A stretch of DNA of 64,000 nucleotides from contig JAFYXM010000004.1 in assembly GCA_017546175.1 (NCBI GenBank), positions 62,001 through 126,000 on the forward strand, written 5' to 3'. Below the pieces are notes generated by a model. It ran no database searches. It was not told the DNA's origin and worked only from the letters and a program-made list of their open reading frames with translations. Both the position numbers and the translations under genes were made by a program. Within the stretch, counting starts at the first letter, position 1; the number at the start of each line of letters is the position of its first letter. Of this stretch, positions 4,139-10,014 are shown in pieces. Origin of the DNA: Elusimicrobiaceae bacterium (lineage in GTDB: Bacteria; Elusimicrobiota; Elusimicrobia; Elusimicrobiales; Elusimicrobiaceae).

Positions 4139-4235
4139 AAAAAAAAGACCCCTGAACGTTACTGATAACTCTGGTGCCATATCAGTAACTACTGGCCAAG
4201 CGGCGGGCGACGCCACAAAAGGCAGTCAAGGGGTT
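4139..4235 (-). ncRNA. Candidate structured small RNA, unknown family
   Basis: This stretch codes for nothing recognisable but is strongly structured. Read on the minus strand, a closing stem ACCCCUUGA / UUCAGGGGU brackets the whole element, with a U-rich tract (4146 to 4139) at its end. Inside are a hairpin GUGGCG-UCGCC-CGCCGC, flanked by CUGCC / GGCCAG pairing, and a perfect 10-bp hairpin GUUACUGAUA / UAUCAGUAAC with a 12-nt loop. A promoter with -10 TATACT ends just upstream, so the predicted start near 4235 coincides with the closing stem. I do not recognise 4.5S, 6S, tmRNA, RNase P or riboswitch cores. The plus strand can fold similarly, so strand choice rests on promoter and U tract. 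Confidence 0.5.
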
Positions 4236-4241
4236 AGCACC

Positions 4242-4270
4242 AGTATAGCAAATAAGTCTAAAACAGGCAA
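4242..4270 (-). promoter_or_regulatory. Promoter of the candidate small RNA
   Basis: Minus strand: -35 TTGCCT (4270-4265), 17-bp spacer, extended -10 TGCTATACT (TATACT at 4247-4242). The predicted start is near 4235, at the base of the RNA closing stem. Confidence 0.5.
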
Positions 4271-4290: not shown

Positions 4291-4319
4291 AAAACCCCCG
4301 CTTTTGGCGGGGGGTTTTT
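4291..4319 (-). terminator. Bidirectional intrinsic terminator downstream of lysS
   Basis: The stem CCCCCGC (4295-4301) / GCGGGGG (4307-4313) is flanked by A and T runs. It lies 16 bp beyond the lysS stop and can terminate on both strands. Confidence 0.85.
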
Positions 4320-9940: not shown

Positions 9941-10014
9941 TGCGGGGTAGAGAAGCCTGGTATCTCGCAAGGCCCATAACCTTGAGATCACTGGTTCAAA
10001 TCCAGTCCCCGCAA
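9941..10014 (+). tRNA. Initiator tRNA-fMet (CAT), atypical
   Basis: The 74-nt cloverleaf has acceptor TGCGGGG / CCCCGCA plus A73, D stem GAGA / TCTC (A11-T24 as in initiators), anticodon stem CAAGG / CCTTG with loop CCCATAA, and T stem ACTGG / CCAGT. The body matches bacterial initiators. It departs from the usual form in three ways: a T1-A72 pair instead of a C1-A72 mismatch, AGG / CCT instead of three G-C pairs next to the anticodon loop, and C33 instead of U33. No CCA is encoded. Confidence 0.9.

Follow-up and report, generated by a model that had tools for sequence, protein, structure and literature searches.

Phages are known to carry antisense RNAs, such as OOP of lambda, which is directed against cII at its 3′ end, and sar of P22. 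Structured elements of another kind, the Rickettsia palindromic elements, are short and occur in frame within open reading frames (ORFs) as well as in spacers. In the Salmonella prophage BTP1, the RNA STnc6030 is antisense to a tailspike gene and to an injection gene and causes superinfection exclusion (PMC7067206). The moron small RNAs (sRNAs) and anti-sRNAs of EHEC prophages, AsxR and AgvB, are 51–60 nt long, with a conserved 3′ part and a 5′ end that varies (PMC4104026).

The locus described here is a candidate sRNA gene between lysS and lolC/E in a 64 kb stretch of DNA from a gut Elusimicrobiaceae bacterium, which we call the window. Its relatives in prophages of the same genus resemble OOP, STnc6030 and sar in having a promoter of their own and in lying antisense to a phage gene, but differ in that a single constant promoter is combined with many RNA bodies unrelated to one another. 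A further difference is that the window copy faces no phage gene, its site being a host spacer, and it is not counted here as a member of the phage cis-antisense RNAs. With AsxR and AgvB the phage copies share their nature as short prophage sRNAs, a conserved site beside a phage gene, in antisense orientation and 3′ of it, and the combination of a conserved and a variable part. In our case, however, it is the promoter that is constant and the whole RNA that varies, and a core sRNA target is known only for the EHEC RNAs. The likeness to the Rickettsia palindromic elements lies in the short structured element found both in frame within ORFs and in spacers, whereas, in contrast to these and to REP elements, there is a single copy per genome, and a promoter and a T run are present.

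Prophage antisense RNAs and moron sRNAs are already known; the novelty here is the constant-promoter, variable-RNA cassettes. A brief search of the literature gave no description of such an arrangement in a virion gene with host-spacer copies, and a limited search of the open-access literature returned no sRNA paper on the phylum. At the level of sequence, the promoter, the structure, the terminator, the phage copy and the cassette family are all evident, and we read the element as a real sRNA gene that is shared with phages. We give a probability of about 0.6 to the joint proposal that it is an independent sRNA gene, that prophages have this cassette in common with the host, and that antisense base pairing is its most likely action. 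A cassette with a constant promoter and a variable RNA, lying antisense within a virion gene and copied in host spacers, would clearly exemplify a trade in regulatory RNAs between phages and hosts.

The element between lysS and lolC/E

On the minus strand of the window, lysS (5855–4335) is followed in order by the lysS terminator (4295–4313), a −35 hexamer, a −10 hexamer, the RNA, a T8 run and lolC/E (from 4046). The −10 hexamer TATACT (4242–4247) is extended, with TGC before it, and the −35 hexamer TTGCCT (4265–4270) stands 17 nt upstream; in a second, distinct copy in the same-genus genome G023, TTGACA is found at the same spacing. The RNA body is predicted to start at 4235 and to end in the T8 run (4139–4235), limits that are drawn from the fold and from the copies in G023 and in a further genome, G025. 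Together with the closing stem of the RNA, the T8 run (4139–4146) forms a predicted intrinsic terminator, which would end the RNA ∼93 nt before the start of lolC. As the lysS terminator lies upstream of the sRNA promoter, the transcripts of lysS and of the sRNA would be separated. The whole sRNA gene, from the −35 hexamer to the T8 run, occupies 4270–4139. The original prediction had placed a small RNA candidate at 4139–4235 between lysS and lolC/E, and this is borne out, with the minus strand as the strand that it left unstated. The extended −10 and the 3′ U tract that it named are also present, and all the parts that it described lie within 4139–4247; the −35 hexamer was absent from its description. 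The locus thus combines, as predicted features, what is expected of an independent bacterial sRNA gene, i.e. its own promoter, a structured RNA and an intrinsic terminator. Close to the lolC ATG there is a TACAAT motif, which is kept in relatives as TAAAAT or TAGAAT. This motif and the position of the T8 run bear on whether the element may instead be a riboswitch-like 5′ leader within the lolC transcript.

The 97-nt RNA is predicted to fold into a three-way junction at −36.4 kcal/mol, compared to −24.2 ± 3.2 kcal/mol for shuffled sequences (z = −3.8), and none of the 200 shuffles folded as well. The closing stem pairs 4227–4233 with 4148–4154 on the minus strand, its 3′ arm standing directly before the T run, as seen in the fold and in the comparison with G023. 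Inside it, a bulged stem (4221–4226 with 4191–4197, minus strand) encloses hairpin 1 (GUGGCG-UCGCC-CGCCGC, 4200–4216, minus strand), which has a U–G pair where G023 has U–A. Hairpin 2 (4158–4189, minus strand) has a perfect 10-bp stem and a 12-nt loop, UGGCACCAGAGU (4179–4168), which is unchanged in G023. The closing stem, the bulged inner stem with its hairpin, the perfect 10-bp hairpin and the 12-nt loop had all been described beforehand, and each was recovered. The plus strand of the element folds well too (z = −3.3) because the sequence is palindromic; the promoter and the T run occur on the minus strand only. A pseudoknot had also been proposed, between the loop sequence GGCACCAG and CTGGTGC just upstream of the element. 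These letters exist, but CTGGTGC extends into the −10/+1 region, and the G023 copy has ATTTGTA in its place; the pseudoknot was rejected.

Both strands of the 64 kb were scanned for TTG-20-TATANT with, after it, a structure whose closing stem ends immediately ahead of five or more T. Two matches were returned, namely the sRNA element and the tRNA-Met gene at 9941, whose promoter is TTTGCTATAAT. The two promoters are nearly alike (TTGCCT...TTATTTGCTATACT for the sRNA and TTGCCA...ATATTTGCTATAAT for tRNA-Met). When the loose rule was applied to 60 random windows with matching dinucleotide composition, it gave 0.45 matches per window and none of the 60 contained one with a fold energy per base comparable to those of the sRNA and tRNA-Met matches; as the rule was composed after the element had been seen, these figures describe rarity in the window and are not a blind test. 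When the window was searched with Rfam 15, only tRNAs reached the gathering threshold, in agreement with the original prediction that the element fits none of the known RNA families. At permissive E-values, the low-scoring matches were far below threshold and fell mostly on the lysS terminator. The same search of the phage loci and a sample of the relatives' spacers gave one tRNA only.

The copy inside a prophage gene

In G023, the element lies antisense inside the 3′ end of a 914-aa podophage-like prophage gene, on a contig that also encodes virion structural families, portal and major head among them, and where Pfam gave only weak SU10-type matches. The match to the window extends over 116 nt (90% identity), beginning at the −10 hexamer and stopping at the T run, with nothing outside. 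The G023 promoter, TTGACA-17-TATACT, agrees with the consensus at 11 of 12 positions, and its −35 hexamer lies outside the matching stretch. This second copy has an independently placed and better promoter, which gives sequence support to the claim of a structured RNA with its own promoter and terminator. It folds at z = −4.4 and carries T6 at the position of the T8 run. The near copy in a prophage gene suggests a phage-derived regulatory RNA that moves between phages and hosts. A PBECR-type toxin domain was considered for the end of the phage gene and is unsupported, with no Pfam match at 0.01.

Comparison of the helices in the window and in G023 revealed three U–A/U–G exchanges, one each in the closing stem, the hairpin 1 stem and the hairpin 2 stem, all of which would be A–C mismatches on the plus strand. 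Pairing is therefore kept only on the minus strand, which favours this strand as the RNA, although three events are few. The window lacks one pair at the end of the closing stem, for which a shifted register, CCCC/GGGG, can substitute. Nearly all of the changes in the G023 copy leave the stems of a minus-strand RNA paired. The original prediction had proposed compensatory changes as a check, and the outcome is weakly positive: the three exchanges are one-sided, no two-sided change was seen, and with only two distinct sequences of this RNA known, for which shuffles are uninformative, covariation of the window RNA is not established.

The G023 element is in frame inside a real phage ORF, and protein-level explanations may remain for this copy. 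What is conserved could be a peptide segment of a phage protein (RPLN.TDNSGAISVTT..AGDATKGSQG), with the RNA features as a by-product, consistent with a frame that is open in all three copies and with the position of the G023 copy inside the 914-aa ORF. However, the frame in the window is without a sensible start and runs antisense through lolC, six of the nine differing codons change the residue (by reading of the two sequences), and at this position the residues of homologous phage proteins are unrelated. We regard a purely peptide-based explanation as extremely unlikely.

Distribution and the wider cassette family

The element is present in 3 of 66 genomes of the genus (the window genome G000, G025 and G023), and no other credible copy was found among 340 genomes of the phylum. 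The only covariance-model match outside the genus (G131, E = 8e-5) was judged by inspection to be AT-rich coding sequence resembling pgi and aligns poorly; weak matches in G065 and G089 were poor too. A search of genome contigs gave G025 as the only relevant match, two others being titled Alphaproteobacteria and Pseudoalteromonas. Exact element patterns had no match in viral contigs, tblastn had none in phage records, and an alignment of the C-terminal part of the phage protein found no viral relatives. A search with the promoter 17-mer returned 12 contexts, which were judged by inspection to be chance matches.

The G025 copy occupies the same lysS–lolC site and is identical to the window RNA at 97 of 97 positions. 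Between these two genomes, lolC is 81% and lysS 86% identical, and the lysS–lolC spacer is 95–100% identical except for the −35/spacer stretch (87%). In lolC protein identity, the relatives of the window genome rank as G033 (97%), G023 (96%) and G025 (92%); G023 is without the element at its lysS–lolC site, and G033 has other material next to lysS and lolC. Relatedness by lolC and presence of the element are thus discordant, which suggests that lineages have recently exchanged the spacer. That the RNA is identical in G000 and G025 is therefore not readable as constraint on its own, and may reflect this exchange instead. A structured-looking insert in G023's own lysS–lolC spacer does not fold significantly (z = −1.35).

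Eight loci in seven genomes have the arrangement TTGnnn-17-TATACT and, behind it, a structure that closes at a T run, with a spacer of 17 in all of them. Their fold z-scores lie between −1.7 and −4.6, and the two weakest loci, in G029 and G074, are not significant individually. In G007, G005, G029 and G023, the promoter lies antisense 47–49 codons from the end of homologous phage genes; related prophages have the same promoter in the same place, followed by different structured RNAs that are terminated by a T run. G005 and G007 share the RNA and not the coding sequence beyond the T run, and G007 and G029 share the promoter side and not the RNA, which places the exchange boundaries close to the ends of the RNA. 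An RNA with its own promoter on the strand opposite a phage gene is encoded in G023, G007, G005 and G029 and also in G068. There (L141, C2 467500–468650), two broken tandem phage gene ends are degraded and have lost the coding frame, and the antisense promoter and RNA are intact in each. The prophage gene ends in G007 and G029 (L138 and L139) carry two tandem C-terminal modules, MRDFMRVLLSPQFGG and LRDLIILLSRPF.LG. A second antisense promoter-like site, TTGACA-17-TATGCT, precedes the inner one in G007, as would be expected if tips had been acquired in succession.

Similar elements were found in host DNA. A second RNA of ∼75 nt, promoter-led and T-terminated, lies downstream of a parB-like gene in G028 (L147/L171, 1500–1590), and is 98% identical over 83 nt to a copy at an unrelated host site in G023 (C17, L172, 1500–1590). 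In a host intergenic region of G025, the terminal hairpin of a promoter-led spacer RNA matches the phage cassettes of G068 and G029 at 92%. In G068 and G010 (L169 and L170, ∼1500), relatives of the hairpin of the G007 phage RNA immediately follow a host gene, where the hairpin appears to serve as the terminator of that gene; hairpins of this type show one two-sided compensatory change. The promoter sequence TTTGCTATACTATT also precedes pilin-like genes in the genus, and is thus an ordinary strong promoter of these bacteria rather than a phage speciality.

Hairpin cassettes at unrelated places would also fit a palindromic mobile element that enters spacers, and genes in frame, like the Rickettsia palindromic elements, with the promoter and terminator features being incidental. 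Both the position of the element in phage genes, in frame and close to the C terminus, and the coincidence of the G023 match boundaries with the unit agree with this. Nevertheless, each genome has one copy, the sequences are several and unrelated rather than one multiplied family, and the promoter spacing is constant while the bodies vary, which makes a mobile element very unlikely in our judgement.

Origin and proposed action

The plus-strand frame opposite the window RNA resembles the phage protein beyond the repeat, on both sides (SIANK..KTGK), which favours transfer from phage to host as the direction. In origin the sRNA is probably a cis-antisense RNA to a virion gene, comparable to OOP, sar or STnc6030, that has since become established in the host. 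The same phage-like residues are also what would be left by a remnant of a prophage gene end in the lysS–lolC spacer, with the promoter and terminator carried along and an RNA that, if made, would be functionless here. The presence of the element in so few genomes of the genus (3 of 66) is in line with such a remnant, as is a target search in which complements of the loop within the window occurred at chance level. On the other hand, the RNA is identical at 97 of 97 positions in G025 despite 81% identity in lolC, the promoter and T run in the window are intact, and other host-spacer cassettes also have an intact promoter and terminator. We consider a functionless remnant unlikely.

For the reading that we prefer, a working sRNA gene derived from phages, we infer that a sigma-70 promoter of the kind driving a tRNA in the same window would transcribe an RNA of ∼95 nt with a three-way junction, and that the closing stem and the U run would act as an intrinsic terminator. 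In prophages of the genus, the promoter would drive either this RNA or another one, transcribed antisense within the 3′ end of a virion-associated gene, and the product would pair with the mRNA of the gene that contains it. The phage RNAs are complementary by construction to the mRNA of the virion-associated gene, and the window copy would be ∼90% complementary to such an mRNA in trans. The lysS–lolC copy would act in trans on related phages or on host mRNAs, starting from its invariant loop.

A more speculative and rather improbable extension is that the phage cassettes confer specificity, as modules, on an RNA-based system of superinfection exclusion, and that hosts such as this one captured them as immunity RNAs. 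The constant antisense promoter in the virion gene would then drive an exchangeable RNA that silences only phages with the same cassette, which would explain why the RNA varies behind a constant promoter. The cassettes give a defined system in which RNA-based exclusion could be tested.

As a separate observation, the length of the lysS–lolC spacer ranges from 94 to >3000 bp across the genus (L005, L035 and L073–L076). Several genomes of the genus have a pilin-like gene on the opposite strand in this spacer, recognized by eye from its N-terminal motif. In its behaviour the spacer resembles a hot spot for insertions, and several assemblies have contig breaks at this site.
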